DNA of 64,000 nucleotides from contig NZ_LAVL01000025.1 in NCBI RefSeq assembly GCF_001083785.1, forward strand, positions 1 through 64,000. The letters run 5' to 3'. This document shows, piece by piece, positions 5,948 to 25,515 of this stretch (position 1 is the stretch's first letter; every line of letters starts with the position of its first letter). The notes under the pieces are model-generated. The model was given only the letters and a program-made list of their open reading frames with translations. It did not search any database and was not told the DNA's origin. The position numbers and the translations under genes are program-made. This DNA is from Nonomuraea sp. SBT364 (GTDB lineage: Bacteria > Actinomycetota > Actinomycetes > Streptosporangiales > Streptosporangiaceae).

Positions 5948-5974
5948 CAGCGAGGCCAGCGAGGCCAGCGAGGC
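5948..5974. repeat. Three tandem copies of a 9-bp unit
   Basis: CAGCGAGGC is repeated three times head-to-tail in the non-coding gap downstream of the EI24 gene. No function is evident; replication slippage is the simplest explanation. Confidence 0.7.
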
Positions 5975-6002
5975 CGGGTCTAGCCGCAGGTTCCCATCGT
6001 GA

Positions 6003-6761
6003 TCAAGGGCGCTCGGCCGCCGGGGCCGGGGGGCCGGGCGAGAGACGGTGCCGGACGAGCAGGGCCGCGCCCGCGACCGCCGCCGGCATCGCGAGTACCG
6101 CCACGAACGGCACCAGGAACAGCACGAACACCACCACCCCGAACCCGAGCGACGCCGCCTTGTTCCCCCGCAGCAGCGCGAACCGCTGCTTCCTGACGAG
6201 CCCCCGCCGCTCCAGCGCCAGCGTGGTCAGCTCGACCGTGAGGAAGAACCCGGACACGGCCGCCCCCAGCACCGGCACCACCGTCTGCCCGATCACCGGC
6301 ACGAACCCCAGGAAGAACAGCGGGATCGTGAACAGCAGCACGTACCCCAGCGTGACGAGGCTGTCGCGGATGGAGCGCGGCAGCGTGCGCCACCACGGCT
6401 GCTCCTCGGCGTCGGGCAGCGGGTCGGCGGCGGCCGACAGCTTCTCGTAGAACGGCTCCCCGATGGCGAGCGTGAGCGCGGCGAAGGTGAGCACGGCCAG
6501 GGCGAGCCCGCCGAGGAAGAGCGCGACGGCGACAGCCGTGCGGAACGCCTCGCGCCACGACCAGGAGTCGGCGAACGGCGTCAGGAACTCGGCCAGCGTG
6601 GTGGCGTTCGTGCCGAGGAGGAACAGCGCCGCCACGTAGACGGCGAACGCGATGATCGCCGGGATGAGCCCGAACAACCACCACCGCCCGTTTCTGGCGG
6701 CCCAGCCCACACCTTGCAGGAAGAAGCCGACGCCGGTGGCGAAGTCGCGCAATGATCGCAT
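6003..6761 (-). CDS. EI24 / CysZ-like membrane protein
   Basis: 252 residues with at least four hydrophobic segments (WWLFGLIPAIIAFAVYVAAL, then TAVAVALFLGGLALAVLTFAA, LGYVLLFTIPLFFLGFVPVI and FGVVVFVLFLVPFVAVLAMP). The pattern FATGVGFFLQGVGW at the start and LAIGEPFYEKLS in the middle matches the EI24 family, which includes the sulfate permease CysZ. No cysteine-biosynthesis genes are adjacent, so sulfate transport is only a possibility. It lies 10 bp downstream of maf and is likely cotranscribed with it. Confidence 0.82.
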   Translation of the reverse strand: MRSLRDFATGVGFFLQGVGWAARNGRWWLFGLIPAIIAFAVYVAALFLLGTNATTLAEFLTPFADSWSWREAFRTAVAVALFLGGLALAVLTFAALTLAIGEPFYEKLSAAADPLPDAEEQPWWRTLPRSIRDSLVTLGYVLLFTIPLFFLGFVPVIGQTVVPVLGAAVSGFFLTVELTTLALERRGLVRKQRFALLRGNKAASLGFGVVVFVLFLVPFVAVLAMPAAVAGAALLVRHRLSPGPPAPAAERP

Positions 6762-6771
6762 GTCGCAAACG

Positions 6772-7353
6772 CTAGCGCCAGAGCGGCGTTACCGCGTAGC
6801 CGAGCTCGTCGAGCAGGGAGCGGAGCAGCGGCAGCGACAGGCCGAGCACGTTGCCGTGGTCGCCCTCGATGCCGTCGACGAACCAGCCGCCGCGGCCTTC
6901 GATGCTGAACGCCCCGGCGAGGTTGAGCGGCTCGCCGGTCTCGGCGTAGGCGGCGATCTCCTGCTCGGTGGGCTGGCCGAAGTGGACGACGGTGGTGGCC
7001 ACCTCGGCGGCCTGTCGGCCGGTCGGCACGTCGATGACGCAGTGGCCGGTGACGAGCCTGCCGGTGCGCCCGCGCATGAGCCGCCAGCGCTCGACGACCT
7101 CCTGGGCCGAGGCGGGCTTGCCGTAGGCGCGTCCGTCGAGCTCCAGGATGGAGTCGCAGCCGATGACCAGCCCTTCGTCCAGCCCGGCGGCGACCGTGGT
7201 GGCCTTGGCCTTGGCCAGCACGAGGCTGAGCGCGGCGGGCGAGTGGGCGGTGAACGCCTCTTCGTCGACCCCGCTCACGATCACCTTGGGGTCGAGACCG
7301 GCGCTGCGCAGCAGGGCCAGGCGGGCGGCGGAAGCTGAGGCCAGAACGATCAC
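6772..7353 (-). CDS. maf: Maf-family nucleotide pyrophosphatase
   Basis: 193 residues starting [19 protein letters not shown], the Maf signature (LASxSxxRxxLL). Also present are the VSGVDEEAF segment, the catalytic-site block [12 protein letters not shown] and the conserved GPxxxAGAFxIEGRG-type region ([19 protein letters not shown]). Maf proteins hydrolyse dTTP, UTP or modified nucleotides to monophosphates and affect septum formation. The protein is full-length, cytosolic, and lies upstream of the EI24 gene in the same direction. Confidence 0.93.
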
Positions 7354-7369
7354 CGGATCAGCCTACCGG

Positions 7370-7909
7370 TCACCATTCGGGGTGCGGTGACCGCGTACGC
7401 GCGGACGGCTCGCCGAGGAGCTCGGCGAGCAGGGGTTCGAGGGCGCCGGGGGCGGCGGCACGCTCGCGGTGCAACTCCCCGGTCATCTCCTGGGTGGTCA
7501 TGTCGGCCCGTTCGGCCCGGTCGGCGAGCAGCGACATGATCATGGGGGCGAGCAGGAGCAGCACCTTGACCAGCGCGGCGGAGTCGAGGCCGGACAGGTC
7601 GGCGAGCGCGTCGGCGGCCTGGTCGACGCCCTGGCCGCCGAGGACGTGGGCGAGGATGTTCTGCCCGTCGCGGGCCAGCGTCGCGACGTCTCCGTTGAAG
7701 GGGTCGGCGTCGACGTGCTCGTCGAGGGCGGTGCGCAGCGCCTCGGCCCCGTCGGGGTGCTCGGAGCTGCGCGCCATGCCGGCCACGATGACGCCGGTCG
7801 CCGCCTGAAGGACCTCGCGCACCGTGGCCTGGTCGGTGCCGAGCATCCCGGCGAGCTGCTCCAGGCCGGGATCGCCGAGCTCGGCGACGAGCTGGTCCGT
7901 CAGTGTCAC
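7370..7909 (-). CDS. DUF937-like small protein
   Basis: 179 residues from a GTG at 7909 with an ideal GGAGGA site 5 bp upstream; the longer frame to 8110 overlaps ftsH and is not used. The sequence (LVAELGDPGLEQLAGMLGTD ... ILAHVLGGQGVDQAADALADLSGLDSAALVKVLLLLAPMIMSLL) is Ala/Leu-rich and helical, and resembles the DUF937/YidB-type helical domain. The function of that family is not established. It lies between ftsH and maf on the same strand. Confidence 0.7.
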   Translation of the reverse strand: MTLTDQLVAELGDPGLEQLAGMLGTDQATVREVLQAATGVIVAGMARSSEHPDGAEALRTALDEHVDADPFNGDVATLARDGQNILAHVLGGQGVDQAADALADLSGLDSAALVKVLLLLAPMIMSLLADRAERADMTTQEMTGELHRERAAAPGALEPLLAELLGEPSARTRSPHPEW

Positions 7910-7977
7910 GCCAGTCCTCCCGATCGTCGTTCCGGAGGTCGTTCCCCGGTGCGGGCCGAGCCTACGTCGGGCCCTCG

Positions 7978-9885
7978 CTAACTTTTGGCCAAACCGGCGG
8001 CGCCGTAGGCGGTGGCCTCGTCGAGGGTCTCGTGCTTCAGGAGGGCGGCCACGATGCCTTCGAGCTTGTCGCGGTTGTCGCGCAGGATGCGCACCGCGTT
8101 CTCGTAGCATTCGTCGACGATCCGCCGGGCCTCCTCGTCGACGATGGCGAGCGTGGCGGGCGAGGCCTGCGGCTGACCGTCGTTCGGCAGGATGGTGAGC
8201 GGGCCGACCCTGGCCGACATGCCCCAGCGCCCGACCATGCCGCGGGCGATCATGGTGACCTGTTCCAGGTCGTTCTCGGCGCCGGTGGTGATGACGCCGA
8301 ACACCACGTCCTCGGCCGCCATGCCGCCGAGCGCGCCGGTGATGCGGCCGCGCAGATACTGCTCGTCGTAGGCGTAGCGGTCGGTGTCGGGGGTGGACAG
8401 CGTGACGCCGAGCGCCCGGCCGCGCGGGATGATGGAGATCTTCCTGACCGGGTCGGCGCCGGGCTGCAGCATGCCGAGCAGGGCGTGCCCGGCCTCGTGG
8501 TAGGCGGTGCGGGTGCGCTCGTCCTCGGGCATCACGATGCTGCGGGCGGCGCCGAGCTGCAGCTTCTCCAGCGCGTCGGCGAAGTCGGCCATGCCGACCT
8601 TCTCCTTGCCGCGCTTGGCGGCCAGCAGCGCCGCCTCGTTGACGAGGTTGGCCAGGTCGGCGCCGGTCATGCCGGGCGTGGTCTTGGCGAGCCGGTCCAG
8701 GCTCACCTCGCCGTCGAGGGGCACTCCCCTGGAGTGCACGCCCAGGATCGCGGTGCGGCCGGCCTGGTCGGGCAGGCCGACCTGGACGGTGCGGTCGAAG
8801 CGGCCGGGGCGGAGCAGGGCCGGGTCGAGGACCTCGGGGCGGTTGGTGGCGCCGATGACGATGACGCCTTCGGCCCCGGAGAAGCCGTCCATCTCGGTGA
8901 GGATCTGGTTGAGCGTCTGCTCGCGCTCGTCGTGGCCGCCGATGCCGCCCGCGCCGCCGCGCGCCCGGCCGATGGCGTCGATCTCGTCGATGAAGACGAT
9001 GGACGGCGCCACCTTGCGCGCCTCCTCGAACAGGTCGCGCACGCGGGAGGCGCCGACGCCGACGATCATCTCGATGAACTCCGACGCGCTGGCCGAGAAG
9101 TACGGCACCTTGGCCTCGCCGGCCACGGCCCTGGCGAGCAGCGTCTTGCCGGTGCCGGGAGGGCCGGCGAGCAGCACGCCCTTGGGCAGCTTGGCGCCGA
9201 GCCTGCGGTACTTGTCGGGGTCCTTGAGGTAGTCGACGATCTCGACGAGCTCGTTCTCCACCTCGTCGATGCCCGCCACGTCCTCGAACGTGACCCGCAC
9301 CTGCCCCGCTTCAACCGGTTTGGCGGCCTTTGACTTGCCCAGGCCGCCGAGCCCGCCGCCGCCCATCATGCTGGCGCCGCGGCGCATGATCCAGATCCAC
9401 AACCCGGCCAGCAGCAGGACAGGCAGCAGTGCCAGCAGGAGGTTGAGGAAGAAGCCTCGGCCCGACGTGAGCGGCTCCGCCTTGATCTCCACGCCCGCCG
9501 CACTGAGCTGCTGCGAGAGCTGGTCGGTGTTGGCGAAGGTGGGGATCTCGGTGCGGAAGTCCGTGTAGGACTGGTTGCCGCTGCCGGGGTCCTTGGCGGC
9601 ACTCTTGAGATGGCCCTCGACCGACAGGCCGGTGGCGTAGATCTCCTTGACGTTCTTGCCGTTCACCTGCTTGGTGAACTCGGTGTAGGAGACCGTCTCG
9701 ACCTGGCTGCTGTCGAAGAAGGACGAGACGAAGAAGAACGCCGCGTAGACGACCAGCAGGGTGATGGCGAACCGCCACCAGTTGATCTTCGGGCGGCCAC
9801 CTGGGGTGCCGGGCAGCCCTTCCGCCCGCCAGGGCGGCTTGACCTTGCCCTTCTTCGGCACCTGCGGCGATCCAGTCCGTTCCAC
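7978..9885 (-). CDS. ftsH: ATP-dependent zinc metalloprotease FtsH
   Basis: A 635-residue membrane-bound AAA+ protease that degrades misfolded membrane and short-lived regulatory proteins. From the chosen start it has an N-terminal helix (~38-56), a periplasm-side domain and a second helix (~145-167). The AAA module has Walker A GPPGTGKT (~241-248), Walker B IVFIDEID and the [23 protein letters not shown]. The protease has zinc motif HEAGH (~463-467) with a later acidic ligand in ENDLEQ. The ATG at 9969 overlaps the next gene; GTG 9885, preceded by GGGGGAG, is preferred. It lacks the long disordered C-terminal tail of some actinobacterial FtsH proteins. Confidence 0.95.
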
Positions 9886-14831: not shown

Positions 14832-15650
14832 GTGAGCGGCTCCGAGCAGGCGCCCGCCGGGATCGACGTGCGGGTGCCGAGCGTCGCGCGCATGTACGAC
14901 TACTACCTCGGCGGCAAGGACAACTTCGCCGCGGACCGCGAGGCCGCCGAGCAGATGATCGAGATCGGCCGCCAGATGGGCAACGACGCCCGCGAGATCG
15001 CCCGCGCCAACCGCGCCTTCCTGGGCCGGGCCGTCCGCGTGCTGACCGAGGCCGGCGTCCGCCAGTTCGTCGACATCGGCGCGGGCCTGCCCACGCAGGA
15101 CAACGTGCACCAGGTGGCCCGGCGGCACGCCCCCGACTCGCGTGTCGTCTACGTGGACAACGACCCCATCGTGCAGGTGCACGCGCGGGCGCTGCTGGCC
15201 GGTGACCCCGCCGCCATCGCCGTGGAGGGCGACCTGACGGACCCCGACGCGATCTTCGGCGACCCGCGCGTCACCGGCCACCTGGACCTGACGCGCCCGT
15301 ACGCCGTCCTCATGGTGGCGGTGCTGCACTTCGTCCCGGACGACGCCGAGGCGGCCCGGGTCACCGCGCGGATCCGCGAGCGGCTGGGGCCGGGCTCCCA
15401 CCTGGTGCTGTCGCACATCTACGCGGGCGACGCCGACGACGGGGTGGCGCGCTCCGGCCAGCAGGTCTACGCCACGACGGCCGCGGGCGGCATCGCGCGG
15501 CGCGACCGTGACCAGATCGCCGGCTTCTTCGGCGACCTCAAGCTGCTGGAGCCGGGCCTCGTCCCGGTCGCCGACTGGGACCCGCAGGCGCCGCCGGCTA
15601 AGGCCGACCTGACGCGGCCCGGCATCCTGGCGGGTGTGGCCCGCGCCTAG
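14832..15650 (+). CDS. SAM-dependent methyltransferase (PF04672)
   Basis: 272 residues from a GTG preceded by GAGAGGGG. The N-terminal signature VPSVARMYDYYLGGKDNFAADR is diagnostic for the actinobacterial PF04672 group. Motif I is FVDIGAGLPTQDN, and VVYVDNDPIVQVHARALL supplies the acidic SAM-ribose contact. These Rossmann-fold methyltransferases are very numerous in actinomycetes, usually with unknown substrates. A paralogue is at 52183-53010 in this window. It follows the GlxA regulator by 38 bp. Confidence 0.9.
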   Translation: MSGSEQAPAGIDVRVPSVARMYDYYLGGKDNFAADREAAEQMIEIGRQMGNDAREIARANRAFLGRAVRVLTEAGVRQFVDIGAGLPTQDNVHQVARRHAPDSRVVYVDNDPIVQVHARALLAGDPAAIAVEGDLTDPDAIFGDPRVTGHLDLTRPYAVLMVAVLHFVPDDAEAARVTARIRERLGPGSHLVLSHIYAGDADDGVARSGQQVYATTAAGGIARRDRDQIAGFFGDLKLLEPGLVPVADWDPQAPPAKADLTRPGILAGVARA

Positions 15651-15659
15651 CCGAGCCGG

Positions 15660-15837
15660 GCGCGGGCATCGGGTGGACGATGCCCGCCTGTTTCCTGACC
15701 GAGCTGTGCGCGCCGTCGCGGCCCACCGGGGAGCGGGTGCGGATCTCGCCCGATCCAGCCACGCGGACGGCGACGCCCTCGGCGTCCCGGGTGAAGCCGG
15801 CGACCTCGCGGCCCCGGGCGACGGCGTCCGTGATCAC
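15660..15837 (-). pseudogene. Remnant of an FAD-dependent monooxygenase
   Basis: Just after the TetR stop, one frame reads VITDAVARGREVAGFTRDAE and then RTRSPVGRDGAHSSVRKQAG. This strongly resembles the central part of PheA/TetX-type FAD monooxygenases, where the consensus runs ...LVGxDGxxSxVRKxxGI. Neither the N-terminal GxGxxG FAD-binding segment nor the C-terminal substrate domain is present; both sides are cut by neighbouring genes. The GTG at 15837 overlaps the TetR stop, which may preserve an ancestral junction. Boundaries are approximate. Confidence 0.55.
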
Positions 15838-16451
15838 CGGGCGCCTCCGGCGGGGGCGGGCACGGCGGCCGCGAGGGCGTCGATCGCCTCGCGGAGCAGG
15901 GGGACCAGCGCGAGCGGCGGGTCGGCGTGCAGCCAGTGCCCGACCGCCGCCTGCACGGCGGCCGTCACCGAGGCCGCCACCAGGTGCGGGTAGAGGTCGC
16001 GCGTCACGTCGGTGCCGGTGCGTGCCGCCACGGCCGCCGCGAACTCCCCGTCGGCGGCGAACGCCACCTTCAGCGACTCGGCCCGCATGGTGGAGTCGCC
16101 CGTGAGCAGCCGCATCGCGGCCAGCAGCGCCGGGTCCGGCGGCTCGGACGCCCGGCCGCCGTCGCCCCACGGCTCGGTCATCGCGTGCCCGATCGCCTCC
16201 CACAGCGGCTCGTCCCCGGGCCGCTCCCGGAGCACCTCGGCGGAGCGCCGCACCCGGTCGGCGTGCCGCGCGGCGAGCGCCTCGTACTTGCTGGAGAAGT
16301 AGTTGTTGAACGTCCGCGGTGACACCCCGGCCTCGGCCGCGATGTCCTCGACGCGTACGTGCTCCATCCCGCGCTCCAGCGCGAGCCGGAGCGCGGCCAG
16401 CGTCAGCGCCTCCCTGGTGGCCTGTTTCTTGCGTTCCCGCAGTCCGCTCAT
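15834..16451 (-). CDS. TetR family transcriptional regulator
   Basis: 205 residues from ATG 16451. The HTH is at residues ~10-57 (ATREALTLAALRLALERG, VRVEDIAAEAGVSPRTFNNY, FSSKYEALAARH). The C-terminal part is helical, as in AcrR-type ligand domains. The frame is open upstream to 16691, but that part is out-of-phase sequence inside the aldolase gene. It lies 47 bp downstream of the aldolase gene, and overlapping palindromes fill that gap, so it likely represses itself. The gene that once followed it survives only as an FAD-monooxygenase fragment. Confidence 0.88.
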   Translation of the reverse strand: MSGLRERKKQATREALTLAALRLALERGMEHVRVEDIAAEAGVSPRTFNNYFSSKYEALAARHADRVRRSAEVLRERPGDEPLWEAIGHAMTEPWGDGGRASEPPDPALLAAMRLLTGDSTMRAESLKVAFAADGEFAAAVAARTGTDVTRDLYPHLVAASVTAAVQAAVGHWLHADPPLALVPLLREAIDALAAAVPAPAGGAR

Positions 16452-16460
16452 GCGGCCAGC

Positions 16461-16499
16461 ATATTGCTGATCACGCAATATTGCGTATTCCGCAATAAT
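16461..16499. promoter_or_regulatory. Composite TetR operator (overlapping palindromes)
   Basis: This A/T-rich island between the aldolase stop and the TetR start has four ATTGC/GCAAT half-sites. ATATTGC (16461-16467) faces GCAATAT (16475-16481) around a TGATCA core. GCAATATTGC (16475-16484) is itself palindromic. AATATTGCG (16477-16485) faces CGCAATAAT (16491-16499). The spacing suits two adjacent regulator dimers. Confidence 0.65.
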
Positions 16500-17263
16500 C
16501 AGTCGAAGAGATCCGGCTGCTCCCGGATGATCTGGTCGTGCAGCGGCTGGAAGCTCACCCAGCCCGCCAGCTCGGTGCCGACCTGCCCGTGGGTGAGCTC
16601 GGCGTTGGCGGGCTCGATGGGCACGACCTGCCCGGCGGCCTTGGCGACGAGCTGCACCTGGGCCGAGCGTTCCATGGTGACGAACCACCACACGGCCGAG
16701 TCCACCGTCTCACCCACCGTGAGCAGGCCGTGGTTGCGCAGTACGACGGCCTTGTTGCCGCCGAGCGCGGCGGCGATGCGCTTGCCCTCCTCCACCTCGG
16801 TCACCACGCCCGTGTAGTCGTCGAACAGCGCGTTGTCCCGGTAGAACGCGCAGGCGTCCTGGGTGATCGGCTCGATGGTCTGGCCGAGCGCCGACAGGGC
16901 CCGGCCGTACACCGAGTGGCTGTGCGCCGCCGCGACGACGTCCGGCCTGGCCTGGTGCACCTGCGAGTGGATGGCGAACGCCGCCCGGTTGACCGGCCGG
17001 CCGCCCTCGACGACGTTGCCGTCGTGGTCGACGAGCAGGAGGTCGCTGACCGTGATGTGCTTGAACGACATGCCGAACGGGTTGACCCAGAAGTGGTCGG
17101 TCAGCTCCGGGTCGCGGGCCGTGATGTGCCCGGCGATCCCCTCCTCGAAGCCGAACTTGCCGAAGATGCGCAGCGCCGCCGCGAGCCGCTGCTTACGGTG
17201 CAGCCGCTCCTCCTCCAGGCTGTCGAACGTCGGAGGCAGACGGAAGTCGAGGTTGTCCGGCAT
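16499..17263 (-). CDS. Class II aldolase/adducin family protein
   Basis: 254 residues from ATG 17263, preceded by GGGGAG at close spacing. This is the class II aldolase/adducin fold: EEGIAGHITARDPE near the start, zinc-ligand histidines in VVAAAHSHSVYGRALSALG and a further one in AVVLRNHGLLTVGETVDSA. Family members are aldolases, epimerases and decarboxylases; the EPITQDACAFYRD segment is common in the actinobacterial hypothetical branch. The substrate is not evident. The downstream TetR is the candidate regulator. Confidence 0.88.
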   Translation of the reverse strand: MPDNLDFRLPPTFDSLEEERLHRKQRLAAALRIFGKFGFEEGIAGHITARDPELTDHFWVNPFGMSFKHITVSDLLLVDHDGNVVEGGRPVNRAAFAIHSQVHQARPDVVAAAHSHSVYGRALSALGQTIEPITQDACAFYRDNALFDDYTGVVTEVEEGKRIAAALGGNKAVVLRNHGLLTVGETVDSAVWWFVTMERSAQVQLVAKAAGQVVPIEPANAELTHGQVGTELAGWVSFQPLHDQIIREQPDLFD

Positions 17264-17412
17264 GGCTCTCCCCTGAGTTTCAGAACCCGGTTCTGAGCGC
17301 ACACTAACGCGGGTCCGGCACGAAGGACATGCTCGATGCCCTACGCGTACCGATGCCATCAAAAATAGACATATACATTAAGGGCTCCCTTTCTTGCGCA
17401 GCGGGTGTTATT

Positions 17413-17440
17413 TCCCCTATCAGGTAACCCGTATAGGGGA
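17413..17440. promoter_or_regulatory. Inverted repeat upstream of the kinase unit
   Basis: TCCCCTAT (17413-17420) and ATAGGGGA (17433-17440) form a perfect 8-bp inverted repeat. The 12-nt spacer contains the palindrome GGTAACC. It lies about 85 bp before the two-gene kinase unit in an A/T-richer region (17330-17460), so an operator or promoter-proximal element is plausible. The rest of the 17264-17525 gap shows no gene. Confidence 0.45.
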
Positions 17441-17525
17441 TCTGTAACCGCACAACAATCGCCATTGGCGCGTTCCGCAGGGAAGATGGCGAATGTCCCT
17501 TCGCAGGGTTGGGCGGTGATCGATC

Positions 17526-18155
17526 ATGAGTCCCTGGGCCGAGGACGAACTGGCCCGCGGCTGGCACAGCGCGTCCCACCTACGGCAATCCTTGCTGGCC
17601 GGGCATCCGGTGCCACGGCTCCCGCCGCAGACCGTACGTCTGCACCCCGACGAGATCCTGCACGGAGATACCGAGCTGGGCCACGAGGTGTGGTACGGCA
17701 TGGACGTCACATATACCCATTCGACGACCGCTTTCGGCGGGCCCGTGTTGTTCACCGCCGGCCTGCTGGCGAGCGCGGCCGGAAATGCCCGCCGGCGACG
17801 CCGGGCCGAGGCCATGGCCGCTCAGCAATGGCGGTTCCAGGGCCACAACCGCACCATGCTGACCAACCACCGGCTCATGGCCTTCGCCGCGGACCGGTGG
17901 ATCACCTGGGAACACCGGGCCATCGTGGAGTTGTGGCCGGCCCCGCAGAACTTCACCTTCACCCTGATCTTCAGCGGCATCGACCCGCTCCGGCTCACGG
18001 GGCCCGGCGCGCCATGGTTCAGCGTTCTCCTCGCGTTCCAGCTCTACGGCCCCGCGTTTCTCGCGGAACGCCCCGAATTCCAGAGCATGGGCGGCCGCGC
18101 GCTGTCACCCGGGCAGGGCCAAGTGATCGAAGAGCGTCGCGAGCGCGGCACCTGA
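17526..18155 (+). CDS. Small protein with one membrane segment and PH-like domain (putative)
   Basis: 209 residues; no family recognised with confidence. There is one hydrophobic segment around residues 72-88 (GPVLFTAGLLASAAG), followed by a basic cluster (ARRRRRAEA). The beta-strand-rich C-terminal domain (MLTNHRLMAFAADRWITWEH, then NFTFTLIFSGIDPLRLTGPG) is reminiscent of bacterial PH-like domains (inference). It ends 30 bp before the kinase-membrane fusion gene in the same direction, so the two are probably cotranscribed. Confidence 0.6.
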   Translation: MSPWAEDELARGWHSASHLRQSLLAGHPVPRLPPQTVRLHPDEILHGDTELGHEVWYGMDVTYTHSTTAFGGPVLFTAGLLASAAGNARRRRRAEAMAAQQWRFQGHNRTMLTNHRLMAFAADRWITWEHRAIVELWPAPQNFTFTLIFSGIDPLRLTGPGAPWFSVLLAFQLYGPAFLAERPEFQSMGGRALSPGQGQVIEERRERGT

Positions 18156-18185
18156 GGAGACTCGGCAGGAGGAACCCGACCCTTC

Positions 18186-20327
18186 ATGACCTCCATACAC
18201 GCGACCGAGTTCGAGGACCTGCTCCTGTCCTTGGTCAAGGGGACGGCCGGCTCCCCGCAACTGGAGGGACTGCTCAGCACCGACGAGCGGTCCCGCCGCG
18301 ACGGGGCCTTCTCCTTCCTGCGCAACATCATGGACCACATCTCCGACTACGAGTACCAGCAGAACGATGTCACCTTCATCGAGGCCTGCGATCGCGCCAT
18401 TGCGGAACTGACGGGGGAAGCGGACGCGTCGCGGCTTCCCATCGCGGGAATCCTGGCGCTGATAGCGCTCAACGCCAAGCTGCTCGAGAGACGATTCGCC
18501 CGCCCGGACCGCGCCCTGCACAGGGCTGCCGACGCCTACTGCAGGAACCTGTTCACGACGACAGCCATCAAGCAGGTCGTCCACATCATCTACGGGCCGG
18601 CGGAAACGGAGGGAACCGCGTTCGAAAGGACGAGCTGGCGCCAGATCAACCCGGACACCTTCGACTACCACAGGGCCGGCACGACGTCGTTCATCCTCAA
18701 GGCGACCACCACGGAGCCCATCGACGAGTCCGGCGCCGAGCGCAAACTCGCCGTCAAGTGTGTGCTGTTCCCTTGGAACAAGCTGACCGCCATCGCCCAG
18801 GCGACCGACGAGTACGCCCGCGTCTACGGTGGCGCGCGGACACCGTCGCTGGTGGTGCATCCGATCGCCTCGACGGAGCGCTGGATCCTCATGCCCTTCC
18901 AGGAGGGGCGGACTCTCAGCGAGCAACTGGCCGCCATGGAGGACCGCACGCCGCCGGCTCCCCTCCCGGAACGGCTGGCCGCGTGCAGGGAGATGGCGGG
19001 CAGGCTAACCACGGCCTTGCACCGGCTCGCCTCCGAGGCTCCGGTCGATCCGGCGAGGCAGGAGAGCCAGCACTTGGACCTTTCGCCGAGCAACATCCTC
19101 ATCGCGGCGGAGTCGGGCGACATCAAGTTCATCGATCTGGGTGCGAACCATCTCTACAGCCGCCAGGTCGGCATCGCGGATCACGACGACTCCGTCTACA
19201 TCGCCCCGGAGGTGAAGAACAAGGGAACGTCCCCCTCCGCCGACGCCTACTCGGTGGGGATCATCCTCATTCAGATGATCTGTGGCTACCCTCCCCGCGA
19301 CGGCCGCGCCCCGGACGAGATCTGGCAGCTGAGCCCCGACCTGGGACGCGCGCTCGAGGACCTCATCGAGGAGGATCACCACAAGCGGCTACTCCTCCTC
19401 CCGGACGGTCCGGCGACCTTCGCGCTGATCGGCACGTTTCTCGACCATGCCATTGAGCTGGCGCAGAAGGAGCCCGACGCCAGCGCTTCCGAGCACAGAA
19501 GGCGGCTCGCACGCGCGCTTCCGACCTCGATCGAGGTGTCCACGCAGTATTCCCAGTGGAGGCTCAGCAAGCGACTCGACATCGTGCGGGCCGAAGACGG
19601 GTACCTGCTCCTCTTCGCCTTCCTTGCGACCGCGTGCTGGTGGTTCATCCTGGCGAAGACGGCGTTGTTCAAGCTGGACGACATCGTGACGCTCGAAATG
19701 GACGACCTGCCGCGCGGGGTCGAGCTCGCCGCGCAGATCATCGCGCTGAGTCAGGGACTGATCGGTGCCAAGTTCTATCAGACCATCCTGGCCAGGCTGA
19801 CGGCCCGGCGAGTTCCGGGCACTCTGGCCAGAATAACCGAGGCCAGTATCAGGCTCATGCCCTTCGTCGCCCTCCTCACCACCATCACGTCGGTCTTCTG
19901 GATTCCGGCGCTGTGGGCGTGGGGTTGCGCGGTCGGGGCGGCCCTCGTGGCCGTGTGCAACTGGCTGACCCTGACCCTCACCACGCGCATGTACCAGGCC
20001 GGGCTGGAGGCTGGGCTGTCCACCGTCCCGCCGGTGGGCGAGCTCCGGGCGCGTGGCTACGAGCAGTGGTGGTGGACGATGCTTCTCTACGCCGTCGTCA
20101 TCACCGTCATCGCGGCAGGGTTGCAGACGGGTCTGATGAAGGACCTCTGGGCGTACGTGTTCGGCCTGGTGCTGATCAGTGTCGGCATCCATTACATCTC
20201 GAAGTTCGTCGTGGCCGGGCCCGGTGTCCGGGCGGAGCTCGCCCGGGCCTTCGCCGCGGGCGAGCGGGTGGCGATTCTCGACGCCCGTGAGGGAGGTCAG
20301 GTCAAGCAGTGGCCCCCGCGCTGGTGA
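18186..20327 (+). CDS. Atypical protein kinase fused to C-terminal membrane helices
   Basis: 713 residues. After a helical N-terminal region of ~150 residues comes a protein-kinase-like domain. It has a VAIK-type lysine in LAVKCVLFP (~K191) and a catalytic loop HLDLSPSNILI (~296-306), where HLD replaces HRD but Asp298 and Asn303 remain. The metal loop is IDLG (~316-319) instead of DFG, and there is an APE motif (~340-342). No clear glycine-rich loop is visible. From ~470 on there are about six membrane helices (~473-490, 510-527, 556-574, 575-598, 630-648, 655-675) and a short cytosolic tail. This is unlike PknB, which has one helix and PASTA repeats. GC is somewhat below the flanks. Confidence 0.75.
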   Translation: MTSIHATEFEDLLLSLVKGTAGSPQLEGLLSTDERSRRDGAFSFLRNIMDHISDYEYQQNDVTFIEACDRAIAELTGEADASRLPIAGILALIALNAKLLERRFARPDRALHRAADAYCRNLFTTTAIKQVVHIIYGPAETEGTAFERTSWRQINPDTFDYHRAGTTSFILKATTTEPIDESGAERKLAVKCVLFPWNKLTAIAQATDEYARVYGGARTPSLVVHPIASTERWILMPFQEGRTLSEQLAAMEDRTPPAPLPERLAACREMAGRLTTALHRLASEAPVDPARQESQHLDLSPSNILIAAESGDIKFIDLGANHLYSRQVGIADHDDSVYIAPEVKNKGTSPSADAYSVGIILIQMICGYPPRDGRAPDEIWQLSPDLGRALEDLIEEDHHKRLLLLPDGPATFALIGTFLDHAIELAQKEPDASASEHRRRLARALPTSIEVSTQYSQWRLSKRLDIVRAEDGYLLLFAFLATACWWFILAKTALFKLDDIVTLEMDDLPRGVELAAQIIALSQGLIGAKFYQTILARLTARRVPGTLARITEASIRLMPFVALLTTITSVFWIPALWAWGCAVGAALVAVCNWLTLTLTTRMYQAGLEAGLSTVPPVGELRARGYEQWWWTMLLYAVVITVIAAGLQTGLMKDLWAYVFGLVLISVGIHYISKFVVAGPGVRAELARAFAAGERVAILDAREGGQVKQWPPRW

Positions 20328-20419
20328 CCAGGCCGCCGACGCATGACGCACGCCTTCACCTGACCCGCTCGCCGCGCCGCCGTCTCGACTCTCCTGCGCA
20401 TGATCCCTAAAATGCGCGG

Positions 20420-21829
20420 ATGCGGAAATTATCCCTACTCCTCCTGGCCACGGCGCTGACCGCCACCAGCGGCGGCGTCGCATCGGCGGCCCCCACGGCC
20501 CCGCCGATGGACCTGGCCCCCTATGCGAAGGGGCGCTCGCAACCGGTCCAGGACCCGGTCTACCCCGCATACGGCAACCCGTCGATCGACGTGCTGCACT
20601 ACGGCCTGGAGCTGGGCTGGCAGCCGTCCGGGCGGAGCCTGACGGGCACCGCCACGCTCACCGTCCGGGCGGTGGAGCGGCTCAGCGAGATCCGGCTCGA
20701 CTTCGGCCGCGCCCTCAAGATCGACGAGGTGACCGTCGGCGGCAAGGCGGTCAAGCCCCGGCACCACAAGGACGACCTGACGATCCCGCTGCCCGCCCCG
20801 CTCGCCGCCGACCAGGGCGCCCGGGTCGTGATCCGCTACCACGGCGTGCCGAAACCCCACAAGTCCGGGCAGCGGCGTATCGACCTCGAACTGCTCGGCC
20901 TGCGCTCGGCCGCCGACGGTTCCGCCTGGGCGCTGCAGGAGCCCTTCGGCGCGTTCACCTGGTTCCCGGTGAACGACCACCCGTCGGACGAGGCGCTCTA
21001 CGACGTCGCCATCACCGTCCCCAAGGGCTGGGCGGGTGTCTCGCACGGGAAGTACCTGGGCAAGAGCGAGAAGGGACGCGAGGCCACCTACCGCTGGCAG
21101 TCGACCGAACCCGTCGCCAGCTACCTCACGCTGTTCACCGCCGACAGGTACCGGCTGCACCGGGACAAGGGTCCCCGCGGCATCCCGATCACCTACTGGA
21201 CGCGTAAGGAGGACGACAGGATGCTGCGGGTGGCGCGCGGCTTGCCGGACCTGATGCGCTGGATGGAGAAGAAGGCGGGACCGTACCCGTTCCCCAGCGC
21301 CGGGGTGGTCGCCACCAGCGAGTCCGGCATGGAGACCCAGCAGATGATCGCCCTCGGCGGGCACTACATGCGCCCCCGGATCGTGCTGCACGAGCTCGCG
21401 CACCACTGGTTCGGCAACAGCGTCGGCCCGCGCACCTGGAAGGACGTGTGGCTGAACGAGGGCTTCGCCATGTACTTCGAGATGCAGTGGACCGCCGACC
21501 ACGAGCCGGGCACGATCGAGGACTTCATGTCCGGCCTGCGCGTGCGCGAGAAGCACATGCGCCAGGAGATGGGCCCGCCGGGTGACTACCGGCGCGACTG
21601 GTTCGCGGGCAGCAACGTCTACTACGCGCCCGCGCTGATGCTGCACGAGATCCGCAAGCAGATCGGCGACGAGAGGTTCTTCGCCATGACCCGCGCCTGG
21701 GTCCAGGAGCACCGCAACACCGGCCAGGACCGGGCGTCCTTCACCGCCTGGGTCAACCACCACACGGGCACGGACTTCACCGCGCTGATCGACGCCTGGC
21801 TCGACTCCAGGACCAGCCCCGAGAGCTAG
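20420..21829 (+). CDS. M1 family metallopeptidase, secreted
   Basis: 469 residues with a Sec signal peptide (MRKLSLLLLATALTATSGGV, cleavage near ASA-AP). The gluzincin motif HELAH is at 324-328 with the third zinc ligand Glu347 (WLNEGFAMYFE). The preceding SESGMETQQMI block is the M1 exopeptidase-type GxMEN region, here as GMETQ, a deviation at the substrate N-terminus site. It lacks the large C-terminal ERAP-like domain, so it is a compact M1 form. Codon 4 is a rare TTA. A hairpin terminator follows directly. Confidence 0.9.
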   Translation: MRKLSLLLLATALTATSGGVASAAPTAPPMDLAPYAKGRSQPVQDPVYPAYGNPSIDVLHYGLELGWQPSGRSLTGTATLTVRAVERLSEIRLDFGRALKIDEVTVGGKAVKPRHHKDDLTIPLPAPLAADQGARVVIRYHGVPKPHKSGQRRIDLELLGLRSAADGSAWALQEPFGAFTWFPVNDHPSDEALYDVAITVPKGWAGVSHGKYLGKSEKGREATYRWQSTEPVASYLTLFTADRYRLHRDKGPRGIPITYWTRKEDDRMLRVARGLPDLMRWMEKKAGPYPFPSAGVVATSESGMETQQMIALGGHYMRPRIVLHELAHHWFGNSVGPRTWKDVWLNEGFAMYFEMQWTADHEPGTIEDFMSGLRVREKHMRQEMGPPGDYRRDWFAGSNVYYAPALMLHEIRKQIGDERFFAMTRAWVQEHRNTGQDRASFTAWVNHHTGTDFTALIDAWLDSRTSPES

Positions 21830-21836
21830 CCGGTGG

Positions 21837-21859
21837 CGCCGCCTCCGAGCGAGGCGGCG
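21837..21859 (+). terminator. Terminator hairpin after M1 peptidase gene
   Basis: A perfect 9-bp stem CGCCGCCTC / GAGGCGGCG with a 5-nt loop starts 8 bp after the stop codon. There is no long T-run, as is common for actinobacterial terminators. Confidence 0.65.
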
Positions 21860-21919
21860 TCAGCGGCCGTCAGGCGGGCGGGAGAAAACGCTCTTTCGGC
21901 AGAGCGGCGAGTGAAAGGG

Positions 21920-21992
21920 TGGAGCTATGGGGATTCGAACCCCAGACCTCCTCCATGCCATGGAGGCGCGCTACCAACTGCGCCATAGCCCC
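21920..21992 (-). tRNA. tRNA-Ala (GGC)
   Basis: The reverse strand folds into a standard 73-nt cloverleaf. The acceptor stem is GGGGCTA / TAGCTCC with discriminator A, and the D-loop contains AGTTGGTAG. The anticodon stem CCTCC / GGAGG encloses loop ATGGCAT (anticodon GGC), and the T-loop is GGTTCGAATCC. No CCA is encoded. Confidence 0.95.
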
Positions 21993-22085
21993 TTGCGATG
22001 CGTGCATCAGTCTAACGGACTCCGCTCACCTCTCTGTACGCCTTTATCCGGCGGCGCACTCCGCAGCGCGCCGCCGGACAGCGTT

Positions 22086-23594
22086 TCAGGAGGTGACCGC
22101 GCCGGCCTTGCCGATGAGGTCGGCCAGCTCGCTCACCATCGGGTCCTCCGCCGCGCCGGACAGCCGCCTGGCGTGCTCGCCCAGCGCGGGCAGGTCGAGC
22201 CCGAACGCCTCCCTGTCCCGCATGTAGAGGGCGAACGCGGCGGCCACCACGTCGACCTGCAGGCGCAGGGGGGCGCCCCGCCACAGGGCCTCGGACAGGT
22301 CGCCGACGCTCACCGCGCCGCTCGCCTCGCTGGGCACGCGGGTGTCGGGGTCCTGCCAGCGCACGGTCGCGGTGGCGAGCTGGCCCTCGGCGCCGGCCTT
22401 GAGTCGTACGGAGTACAGCGCGGTGACGGCATGCCCGGGGCCGATCTCGCCGCCGTCACGCGAGTCGTCGCGGAACTCCTCGGTGTCCAGGGCGCGGTTC
22501 TCGTAGCCGAGGAGCTGGTAGCTCTCCACCACCGACGGGTTGAAGACGACCTGCGCCTTGGCGTCGCGGGCGCGCAGCTCGATGCTGGCGGGCAGCTGGG
22601 TGGCGAAGATCTTGTCGGCCTCCTCCTGGGTGGAGACGTACACGGCCGCGCCGTCGCCGTTGTCGGCGAGCTGTTCCATGAGCTCGTCGCCGTACTCGCG
22701 GCCGACGCCGACGGTGAGAAGGGTGATCTGCCGTCCGGCGTGCTCCTTGACCCGGTCGAGAATCGCCTGCCATGCGGTGCTGCCCTGGTTGGCCAGGCCG
22801 TCGGAGAGCAGGATGACGCGGTTCGTGGCGGCGGGGCGGTGCGCGGCGGCCGCTTCCCGGTAGCCGAGGACGAGACCGGACTCCAGGTTCGTGCCGCCTT
22901 CGGTGCTGAGCTCGTCGACGGCCCGGTGCAGGTCGTCCCTGGCGGTGAGCGGGGTCATCGCCGCCAGCACCCGGGCCTCTTCGCTGAAGGCCACGATGGA
23001 GACCTGGTCGCCGGGGGCGAGCTGGTCGAGCAGCGTGTGCAGGGCCTGCTTGACCAGGTCGAGGCGGCCGGTCTCGGCCATGGAGCCGGAGACGTCGACG
23101 ACGAAGGTGAGGTTGGCGGGGCGCCGGGCCTCGGCGGACGAGCGGCGGGTCTGCAGGCCGACGCGCAGGACGGCCCGGCCCGGCTCGTCCAGCAGGGCGC
23201 CGTCGGTGTGGACGGTGAAGCCGTCGTCCCGGGGTTCGGCGTAGTCCTGCTTGAAGGAGTTGACGAACTCCTCCGGGCGGATCCCGCCGGGCTCGGGCCA
23301 GCGGCCCTCCTGGAGGGTGCGGCGCGTGTAGGCGTACGAGGCGGTGTCCACGTCCAGGGCGAAGGTGGAGATCTGCGCCCGCGTCGTGTCCTTCTCCTGG
23401 TCCTGCCGGTCTTCCCGGCTCTCCTGGTTCTCCCGGCTTTCCTGGTTCTTCTGGTCCTGGCCGGTGGTCGCCCGGGGTACTTCTTGGGGGGCCGCTCGTT
23501 CGCCGGCGCTGGGCCGGCCTCCCGGGCCGCCGCACGCGGCGAGCGCGAGCAGCCCAGCGATTGCGACAGTTGCCATCAAAGGACGAAATTTCAT
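22086..23594 (-). CDS. VWA-domain lipoprotein (YfbK-like)
   Basis: 502 residues. A lipoprotein signal peptide ends in lipobox LAAC (Cys21). A hydrophilic linker (~45-68) consists of near-repeats of QESREN-type units, from short DNA repeats at about 23393-23460. The VWF-domain N-terminal YfbK-type region (STFALDVDTASYAYTRRTLQ) precedes a VWA domain with intact MIDAS DVSGS (~167-171). The C-terminal part matches the DUF3520 region of the same family. It is predicted to be surface-anchored. Such proteins probably mediate metal-dependent adhesion; the partner is unknown. It is divergent from the asparagine-synthase-like gene. Confidence 0.88.
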   Translation of the reverse strand: MKFRPLMATVAIAGLLALAACGGPGGRPSAGERAAPQEVPRATTGQDQKNQESRENQESREDRQDQEKDTTRAQISTFALDVDTASYAYTRRTLQEGRWPEPGGIRPEEFVNSFKQDYAEPRDDGFTVHTDGALLDEPGRAVLRVGLQTRRSSAEARRPANLTFVVDVSGSMAETGRLDLVKQALHTLLDQLAPGDQVSIVAFSEEARVLAAMTPLTARDDLHRAVDELSTEGGTNLESGLVLGYREAAAAHRPAATNRVILLSDGLANQGSTAWQAILDRVKEHAGRQITLLTVGVGREYGDELMEQLADNGDGAAVYVSTQEEADKIFATQLPASIELRARDAKAQVVFNPSVVESYQLLGYENRALDTEEFRDDSRDGGEIGPGHAVTALYSVRLKAGAEGQLATATVRWQDPDTRVPSEASGAVSVGDLSEALWRGAPLRLQVDVVAAAFALYMRDREAFGLDLPALGEHARRLSGAAEDPMVSELADLIGKAGAVTS

Positions 23595-23730
23595 CAGCTA
23601 TTGCCACCTCCAGGCCCTATGACGGCCCTGGCCCCCGGGGTGGCCGGGCCGGTGACGTAAGCGACGGCAAACCGCGATCCACGCGTGATCGATTGTGGTG
23701 AACCGGTGATATCCGGTAGGCATTGTCGTC

Positions 23731-25515
23731 GTGCGCGTCTATTTGGGGTTGGCCGCAAAGGGCCACGAGATTCCCGCCCGTGTCCTGGACAGGGTCCGAT
23801 CCGTTATCGAGACCGCCTTCCCGGTGCCTGCCGAGGTGATCCGGGGCGGCGAGTGGCACGGCCGGGAGGTGTCGCTGTTCGGCTGGTCGAACGAGCCCGA
23901 CGACTCCCGGCAGCCTCCGCTGATCTCCGAACGCGGCGGCCGCGTGCTCGGGCTGAACGGCCACCTGGCCGATCCGGCCGACGCCGCCCGGCTGCTGGAC
24001 GATCCGTCGGCAGGCGACGTGGGCGGCTGCTTCTCCGCCTGGGTGGCACGCGACGGCGAGCTGGCCGCCGCGACCGCGATCAACCGCGTCTGTCCCGTCT
24101 TCTACGCCGAGACGCCCGACCTGCACGTGGTGGGCAGCCGGGCGCTGCTCGTGCACCTGGCCGCCCGGCAGGACGACCGGATCGACCACGACGTGCCCGC
24201 CCTCCAGACGATGATCCGGCAGGGCTTCTTCCTGTCGGACGAGACGCCGTACCGGGGAGTGACGGCGCTGCGCCCGAGCTCGCGGATCGACGTGCGGGAC
24301 GGGCGCCGGACGATCACCGAGACCCCGCTGCCGCAGGCGGCGGGCTGGCCCGACACGGCGCGGCGCAAGCGGGCGGCGATCGGCGAGCTGGCCGACGCGC
24401 TGCTGGCGACCGTGGCCCCGCTGCGCGACCTCGGCGAGCCGGTCAACCTGGCGCTGACCGGCGGGCGCGACACCCGCATCCTGGCCGCGCTGCTGCACGC
24501 CGCGCGGGTGCCGTTCCGGGTCACCACGAACGGCCTCGACACGCATCCGGACGTGATCCTGGCCCGGCAGATCGCCGCCCGGCTCAAGGTCGAGCACACC
24601 GTGATCGCCCCGCAGCAGACCGCCGAGCGTGACGCCGTGCTGGTGGAGCACCCGCTGAGCCGGGCTTGGGAGACGCTGCGCACGTGTGAGGGGATGACCT
24701 CGGCGTACGAGACGATCGTGAGCTACCTCCCGTACTCCAGCAAGGCCACCATGTCCGGGCAGAGCGGCGAGACGCTGCGGGCGGGCAGCCTGAACCTGCT
24801 CCAGACCGACCTGAGCGACAAGGCCCTGCTGCGCCGCATCAACAACACGTTCTACAAGGACGAGAAGCTGTTCACCGCCGAGGCGAACGAGCACGCCCGC
24901 GAGCTGGCCAAGCCCTGGCAGGCCCGGCCGGACCGGCTGGAGGCGCTCGACCACATCTACATCTGGTACAAGGTCGGCCGCTGGCAGGCCAGCGCCCGCG
25001 CGGGGTCGCTGCGGCGGGGCGACCCGGTCCGCCCGTTCCTGGACAACCGGGTGGTACGGGCCGCGCTGGCGCTGGACCAGGGCTGGCGGCTCTCGGAAGA
25101 GGTGATTTATTCGCTCATCTTGAGATTCGCCCCGGAGCTGCGGGACGTCCCCATCGAAGGCAAGCCGTGGCGGTTCGTCGAAGGGATGGCGCCGCGACGC
25201 TGGTGGGAGCGGACGCACGTGCCCCCGCCGCACATGCCGACGGCCAAGACCGGCGGCGGCTGGAGCTGGCGGACCAGCCCCGGCCCCGAGCTGACCGACG
25301 TGCTGCGGCAGCAGGTGCTCGGCAACCTGGACGCGCTCACCCCGATCGTGAACCCGGACGAGGTGCGCGCCCTGTTCGCCGACCCGGTGGTCAAGAAGCC
25401 CGCCACCGCCTGGCACCTCTACACGGTCAGCACGCTCCTGACCGGCGCGTACCCCGGCAAGGAGCCCGAGGGCCTGGAGCGCATCGCCGTGTCCAAGCCC
25501 GCACCGAAGCCCTGA
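23731..25515 (+). CDS. Asparagine-synthase-like protein lacking the glutaminase Cys
   Basis: 594 residues. The C-terminal half has an AsnB-type PP-loop, TGGRDT (~243-248) in place of SGGxDS, followed by RILAALLHAARVPFRVTTNG. The PP-loop normally binds ATP and adenylates a carboxylate. The N-terminal ~190 residues resemble an Ntn-type glutaminase fold but begin MRVYLGL with no Cys2, so glutamine hydrolysis is unlikely. Lasso-peptide cyclases and other ATP-dependent amide-forming enzymes share this layout, but no precursor or protease gene is adjacent. The GTG start at 23731 is the best available; its ribosome binding site is weak. Confidence 0.75.
   Translation: MRVYLGLAAKGHEIPARVLDRVRSVIETAFPVPAEVIRGGEWHGREVSLFGWSNEPDDSRQPPLISERGGRVLGLNGHLADPADAARLLDDPSAGDVGGCFSAWVARDGELAAATAINRVCPVFYAETPDLHVVGSRALLVHLAARQDDRIDHDVPALQTMIRQGFFLSDETPYRGVTALRPSSRIDVRDGRRTITETPLPQAAGWPDTARRKRAAIGELADALLATVAPLRDLGEPVNLALTGGRDTRILAALLHAARVPFRVTTNGLDTHPDVILARQIAARLKVEHTVIAPQQTAERDAVLVEHPLSRAWETLRTCEGMTSAYETIVSYLPYSSKATMSGQSGETLRAGSLNLLQTDLSDKALLRRINNTFYKDEKLFTAEANEHARELAKPWQARPDRLEALDHIYIWYKVGRWQASARAGSLRRGDPVRPFLDNRVVRAALALDQGWRLSEEVIYSLILRFAPELRDVPIEGKPWRFVEGMAPRRWWERTHVPPPHMPTAKTGGGWSWRTSPGPELTDVLRQQVLGNLDALTPIVNPDEVRALFADPVVKKPATAWHLYTVSTLLTGAYPGKEPEGLERIAVSKPAPKP

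Follow-up and report, generated by a model that had tools for sequence, protein, structure and literature searches.

A putative membrane-integral Hanks-like kinase with an optional PH-like partner in an accessory block of Nonomuraea sp. SBT364

What is the role of a protein that joins an atypical kinase domain to a series of membrane helices, and does the small protein encoded just in front of it belong to the same system? The question is raised by a 64,000-bp stretch of DNA from Nonomuraea sp. SBT364 (contig NZ_LAVL01000025.1, positions 1 to 64,000; "the window" below), which carries a gene for a 209-residue protein followed by one for a 713-residue protein. A preliminary description, made from the sequence alone, took the two for a pair and for a possible signalling or defence module acting on the membrane. 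Our analysis favours, with moderate confidence, an accessory membrane-integral serine/threonine kinase that has an optional PH-like partner and spreads horizontally as a signalling unit. The positions of the features are collected in Table 1.

Kinase core and membrane domain

The two genes lie on the same strand with a gap of 30 bp, as first described, and an AGGAGG motif can be seen by eye upstream of the start of the 713-residue protein. For this protein an AlphaFold2 model built on seven homologues (predicted local distance difference test score, pLDDT, 72.2; predicted template modelling score 0.74) yields an N-terminal helical domain, a kinase fold and C-terminal membrane helices. The Pfam Pkinase match is limited to residues 295-378 (E 4.2e-13, above the cut-off), and the predicted kinase fold is wider. 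Its best Foldseek match, over residues ~145-427, is PknB of Staphylococcus aureus, and the best VIA-align matches include PknI and PknB of Mycobacterium tuberculosis, with Z up to 10.8. The preliminary statement that the protein does not match PknB-type kinases is therefore right for its architecture but not for its fold. These fold searches were dominated by the kinase domain and hardly probed the helical parts, so for those parts we claim no novelty of fold. Membership in two named kinase families is not borne out: the PASTA kinase model NF033483 of NCBIfam scores 29 bits against a cut-off of 450 and Pfam shows no PASTA domain, and the MADS mad6 model NF047741 scores 30.7 bits against a cut-off of 460, over residues 295-431 only.

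The motifs are indeed atypical, with HLD (296-298) in place of HRD, DLG (317-319) in place of DFG and no GxGxxG, but atypical should not be taken here to mean inactive. We aligned 13 sequences, namely the window's protein, eight near and four distant relatives, setting aside a broken homologue (L014) and one cut by a contig end (L090). Residues K191, D298, N303, D317, E342, D353 and R401 are identical in all 13; we take K191 to be the beta3 lysine, D298 the catalytic aspartate, N303 the accompanying asparagine, D317 the Mg-binding aspartate of the DFG type and E342 the glutamate of the APE motif. The place of the glycine loop is taken by a motif in which G165, T167, S168 and I170 are likewise invariant. 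The GxGxxG loop is variable even among true kinases. One relative, L010, carries HRD where the window has HLD. Since the catalytic-core residues are invariant, the 713-residue protein, for all the atypical features of its N-lobe, probably has kinase activity, and because its glycine loop is replaced, it is better called Hanks-like than a typical Hanks kinase.

Six membrane helices are predicted behind the kinase domain (469-493, 512-535, 546-571, 574-608, 624-648 and 654-701), in agreement with the fusion that was first proposed, and hydropathy peaks at 1.9-2.0 in four C-terminal helices. The charges of the loops mostly fit a topology in which both termini are inside under the positive-inside rule, with five K/R before helix 1, five D/E between helices 1 and 2, three K/R between 2 and 3, two K/R between 4 and 5, and six K/R with four D/E after helix 6. 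No known domain was found for the region: a sequence search of the PDB with it returned no match at E up to 1, and Pfam scans of the 713-residue protein and 12 members of its family gave no convincing family. Matches to Herpes_UL49_5 (3 of the 12 members, best E 0.015), Epiglycanin_C (one member, E 0.041) and DUF6683 (the 713-residue protein, E 0.28) were rejected as chance. In the near branch the membrane domain is about as well conserved as the kinase domain. It is 46-70% identical to that of the window (the lowest value belonging to the contig-cut L010), compared with 52-65% for the kinase domain and 32-39% for the N-terminus. A profile of the membrane domain finds 7 of the 246 genomes of the genus labelled g25 and 2 of 325 genomes of the class, the window's own included (one shared), and every match sits in an open frame of 723-798 codons. 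All seven loci read outside the window (L084-L090) also have a Pkinase match, which scores above the Pfam cut-off in L084 and L085. The N-terminal helical domain is a candidate sensor or regulatory domain; a profile of residues 1-237 has no sequence relative in the PDB.

Table 1. Features of the locus, in positions of the window
Feature	Position	Strand	Residues	Basis and remarks
Accessory block with both genes	17317..20380	none		BLASTN against the empty site L094; GC content
Inverted repeat, 8 bp exact, 12-nt loop	17413-17420/17433-17440 (17413..17440)	none		Inside the block
Gene of the small protein	17526-18155	+	209	Open reading frame; predicted PH-like fold with inserted hydrophobic helix
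Predicted PH-like domain of the small protein	17652..18059	+	~43-178	AlphaFold2, VIA-align
Predicted hydrophobic insertion helix of the small protein	17742..17819	+	73-98	AlphaFold2, hydropathy
Gene of the kinase-membrane protein	18186-20327	+	713	Open reading frame; homologues at 47-62% identity
Predicted N-terminal helical domain	18186..18605	+	~1-140	AlphaFold2; least conserved part
Protein kinase domain	18618..19466	+	~145-427	Pfam, AlphaFold2, Foldseek/VIA-align, 13-sequence alignment
Predicted C-terminal membrane domain	19521..20288	+	~446-701	Six helices predicted in the membrane; no matching family found

Distribution of the kinase and its phospholipase-coupled branch

The kinase is rare and patchily distributed. 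Near relatives are found in Nonomuraea, Spongiactinospora and Actinomadura, with six loci among the GTDB contigs (the L010 homologue being cut off by a contig end). A search of 345 genomes of the order at E 1e-60 found the kinase in 8, the window's own included. Genus g25, of the family labelled f20, has it in 7 of 246 genomes when both branches are counted, two with near relatives (L084 and L085) and five with distant ones. The nearest relative of the window's kinase is L009, from a Spongiactinospora record whose title calls it a plasmid. The two form a pair in the tree, where the two near g25 copies group with N. corallina, each with support of 100/99. These two placements suggest horizontal transfer of the kinase family. 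No relative was found among PLSDB plasmids at E 1e-20, though the record of L009 is titled plasmid, or in a phage collection at E 1e-5, and none of 12 stretches of viral contigs that fit a kinase pattern was confirmed. Two loci have features of their own. L013 has a Phd/YefM-antitoxin-like gene (8146-8730) directly after the kinase homologue, on the opposite strand, and in L014, from Actinomadura sp. DC4, positions 6001-8939 hold one copy in two pieces and then the N-terminal remnant of a second, an arrangement that reflects either decay or tandem duplication.

The distant branch (L086-L090; 763-795 residues, with L090 cut at 763) comprises the five g25 genomes just mentioned. Four of its members were compared with the window: their kinase domains are 33-37% identical to that of the window, their membrane domains 25-26%. 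In all five, a gene for a patatin-like phospholipase (Pfam E 1.2e-18 to 1.4e-16) lies directly upstream of the kinase gene and overlaps it; in L087 (8413-11818), the patatin frame still has 26 nt to run at the ATG of the kinase. Judged by eye, L087-L089 occupy one chromosomal site between sigma-factor-like and serine-protease-like genes, and L090 shares the sigma-factor-like side. Since L087-L090 look like close relatives, the coupling to a phospholipase counts as two settings, one in L087-L090 and the other in L086. The overlap of the two genes is the strongest hint of an output of the kinase, which would lie at the membrane, with a membrane kinase controlling a phospholipase or acting alongside it.

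The accessory block and the small protein

Both genes of the window lie in a block that is absent from the same site of a congeneric genome. L094, from genome G005, has 47 bp where the window has 3064 bp, and window positions 16499-17316 and 20381-21831 align by BLASTN to its positions 597-1413 and 1461-2915. The genes that flank the block, for an aldolase (97.7% amino acid identity) and an M1 peptidase (78%), adjoin each other in L094. With one block standing against 47 bp, both genes were gained or lost within that block, in one or more steps. The G+C content (GC) of the block is 66.3%, compared with 71.3% for the window, so that the lower value noted at the outset stands, and 1.1% of equal-sized stretches are equally low. 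A search of 54 congeneric genomes for the peptidase at E 1e-100 showed that 18 others carry its gene. L094 is the sole one of these with the aldolase inside the fetched flank of ~1.5 kb, and within that flank neither gene of the pair lies near the peptidase in any of the 18.

The edges of the block have no terminal repeats beyond a 7-bp inverted match. The inverted repeat that the preliminary description placed in front of the genes does exist, but no significance can be attached to it. The window contains the starts of 127 such repeats (loop 3-20), about 2 per kb, and the RNA fold of the region is ordinary (z -1.35; 22 of 200 shuffles as good). As it is also not at the ends of the block, we rejected it as an element end or operator and regard it as no more than chance.

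The small protein was modelled by AlphaFold2 with 23 sequences (pLDDT 85.8). The model has seven predicted strands, at 45-57 and 101-158, a capping helix at 162-174 and an inserted hydrophobic helix. Among the matches listed by VIA-align are GLUE, PH, RanBD, EVH1 and PH-GRAM-type chains at Z 8.7-10.5, in keeping with the hydrophobic segment and PH-like domain first proposed; Foldseek alone fell short of E 0.001, its best match having E 1.6e-3. The hydropathy of the inserted helix is moderate (1.31 at 68-86), the model is poor at residues 69-71, directly ahead of the helix, and it is probably not a classical transmembrane helix. The protein belongs to no Pfam, NCBIfam or PADLOC family, and one of 23 members of its own family matches CSLinker of Pfam (E 0.0028). 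This family was found in 23 of 394 genomes of the class and in 3 of 98 relatives, the window's own genome being included in both counts, and on four plasmid records, two from Rhodococcus and two from Kocuria.

In four of the 23 other genomes with the small-protein family, its gene adjoins one for a serine/threonine kinase (L052, L053, L055 and L062), and Pfam confirms the kinase in L052, L055 and L062. L052 and L053 look orthologous, which leaves three independent cases. The number of adjacent cases expected from the per-genome Pkinase counts is 0.25, an expectation that would rise slightly since the counts for G000, G526, G565, G602 and G637, each with 69 of its candidates scored, are lower bounds. 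Under a simple Poisson model with 0.9 genes per kb assumed, set up after the loci had been looked at, three cases have P ~0.002. Elsewhere, a relative of the small protein adjoins a gene for a 2195-residue TIR/caspase-like protein (L058, 7528-14115) and, in another locus, one for a trypsin-nSTAND1-WD40 protein (L063, 7642-11931).

Weighing the explanations

In the reading that we favour, the six-helix domain would hold a catalytically competent Hanks-like kinase in the cytoplasmic membrane. A signal sensed by the N-terminal helical domain, the membrane domain or both would then lead it to phosphorylate a target near the membrane. The PH-like protein, presumably co-transcribed and so probably co-expressed, may serve as an adaptor that attaches to the kinase, to the target of the kinase or to the membrane.

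Several observations weigh against this reading, the first of which concern the pair. The 21 kinase loci that were fetched represent 14 distinct homologues (in the six pairs checked, L015 equals L009, L017 L013, L018 L010, L019 L011, L020 L012 and L021 L014), with at least 5 kb covered on each side in most loci and less in L010, L086 and L090, where the contig or the fetched stretch ends. Within these flanks the small gene was found in none of the 21, by tblastn at E 1e-3 or by the family profile. The combination is thus known from the window alone, and the two genes are not conserved as a pair. By eye, the genes upstream of the kinase vary from locus to locus, the patatin of the distant branch excepted. 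From the side of the small protein, a neighbouring kinase gene is missing in 19 of 23 loci, and two of the three independent kinase neighbourhoods are convergent rather than operonic. The best reading is that the PH-like partner is optional. As for the kinase, its model is of moderate confidence, and pLDDT falls below 50 at 54-61, 196-199, 213-219, 292-296, 319-348 (the activation segment), 494-510 and 705-713. The 13-sequence alignment contains neither a GxGxxG loop nor an invariant alpha-C glutamate within 200-216, so that activity is probable rather than certain, and the Pkinase matches of the five distant kinases fall under the Pfam cut-off (23.7-31.5 against 31.7 bits). Helices 2 and 3 are weakly hydrophobic (1.2-1.3) and the N-terminal stretch 82-100, at 1.52, is about as hydrophobic; the number six is for this reason a prediction. 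Finally, the empty site is that of a single genome, and the homologue of Actinomadura sp. DC4 is broken, so the kinase gene is dispensable there.

Could the locus instead be an anti-phage or conflict module, in which the kinase is switched on by infection or by injury to the membrane and then, with a phospholipase in the distant branch or the PH-like partner here, harms the membrane or halts the growth of the cell? Rarity and patchiness, the copy on a plasmid-titled record, presence and absence at one site and a broken copy in one genome are all of the kind expected from such a module, as are the patatin partner of the distant branch, the antitoxin-like gene of L013 and the TIR-caspase-like and trypsin-nSTAND neighbours of the small-protein family. 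Accessory genes, however, frequently have non-defence roles, and no relative of the kinase turned up in the plasmid, phage and viral collections at the thresholds given above. PADLOC does report defence kinases, from mad6 of MADS (E 4.1e-14) through PD-T4-6 and MkoA, among others, to Stk2 (E 0.025), but the likeness ends within parts of the kinase domain, the partner genes of those systems were not seen by eye and the six-helix domain is extra; defence-system membership by this route was therefore rejected. By eye, no further defence gene adjoins the pair in window 15000-24000 or the kinase in L009-L014. We regard a conflict module as somewhat unlikely. Of the module envisaged at the start, action at the membrane is likely and a role in defence possible.

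A plainer explanation is an ordinary signalling kinase, one product of the actinobacterial expansion of serine/threonine kinases, with a membrane anchor and an unrelated small gene imported alongside it. The window's genome has at least 66 Pkinase matches (69 of 78 candidates scored), and both the missing conservation of the pair and the non-kinase neighbours of most PH-like genes agree with it. Yet a conserved six-helix domain far exceeds an anchor, the gene is rare, and the two genes share one block with a short gap between them, all of which make this explanation unlikely. A bolder possibility, which we consider decidedly unlikely, is a new membrane-embedded kinase switch whose six-helix domain would sense or disturb the membrane and whose exchangeable partners, the PH-like adaptor here and the patatin phospholipase in the distant branch, would attack the membrane of their own cell under the control of phosphorylation, as an immune response. 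That the kinase fold is that of a pseudokinase, which would scaffold the membrane domain or sense nucleotides for it, might be read from its lack of GxGxxG and of an invariant alpha-C glutamate, its HLD and the disrupted catalytic residues that are reported for most kinases of certain actinobacterial conflict systems (PMC7159879), but the invariance of the beta3 lysine, the catalytic aspartate, the asparagine, the Mg-binding aspartate and the APE glutamate, together with the HRD of L010, makes it very improbable.

An accessory membrane-integral kinase, the reading that we prefer, has parallels among known systems. With the Hanks-type kinases PknB, PknI and Stk1, which are among its best fold matches, it has the kinase fold and the catalytic core in common, but it lacks PASTA domains and GxGxxG and adds the helical N-terminus and six C-terminal helices. 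Its general design is already known, as kinases fused to transmembrane helices are reported from actinobacterial GAP1-N2 systems, where they are said to be associated with genes for PP2C and for freestanding vWA proteins next to a GTPase of the GAP1-N2 type (PMC7159879). Compared by description rather than by sequence, the window resembles these systems in having a vWA gene near the block (22086-23594), but that gene is YfbK-like, lies outside the block, 1.7 kb from it, and is on the opposite strand; by eye, neither a GAP1-N2 GTPase nor a PP2C gene was recognised in window 15000-24000. The predicted fold of the small protein is that of the PH-like/GRAM superfold, with an extra inserted hydrophobic helix. 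The patatin of the distant branch is weakly like the phospholipase effectors of PADLOC (best E 3.4e-10), but its partner is a membrane kinase and, by eye, no nucleotide cyclase adjoins it.

In the literature listings searched, which did not extend to subscription papers and preprints, no report of this kinase family, its membrane domain or the coupling to patatin was found. The window defines a protein family that is unnamed in the libraries searched, in which a kinase is combined with a conserved membrane domain of several helices, and the phospholipase-coupled branch connects protein phosphorylation to attack on membrane lipids in a way that can be put to the test. The PH-like family, found beside kinases and in single cases beside TIR/caspase and STAND genes, may serve as a marker for further systems.

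Other observations concern the surroundings. On the far side of the aldolase gene from the block, 845 bp of the window (15654-16498), which by eye hold a TetR-like gene and an apparently truncated piece of an FAD-monooxygenase gene, are also missing from L094; the spot therefore varies. A tRNA-Ala gene (21918-21992) lies 1.5 kb off the block and not at its edge. In L046 and L047, a relative of the small protein (5956-6558) is found in a Rhodococcus plasmid region together with genes for a nonribosomal peptide synthetase, for the shikimate branch and for chloramphenicol export (cmrA).

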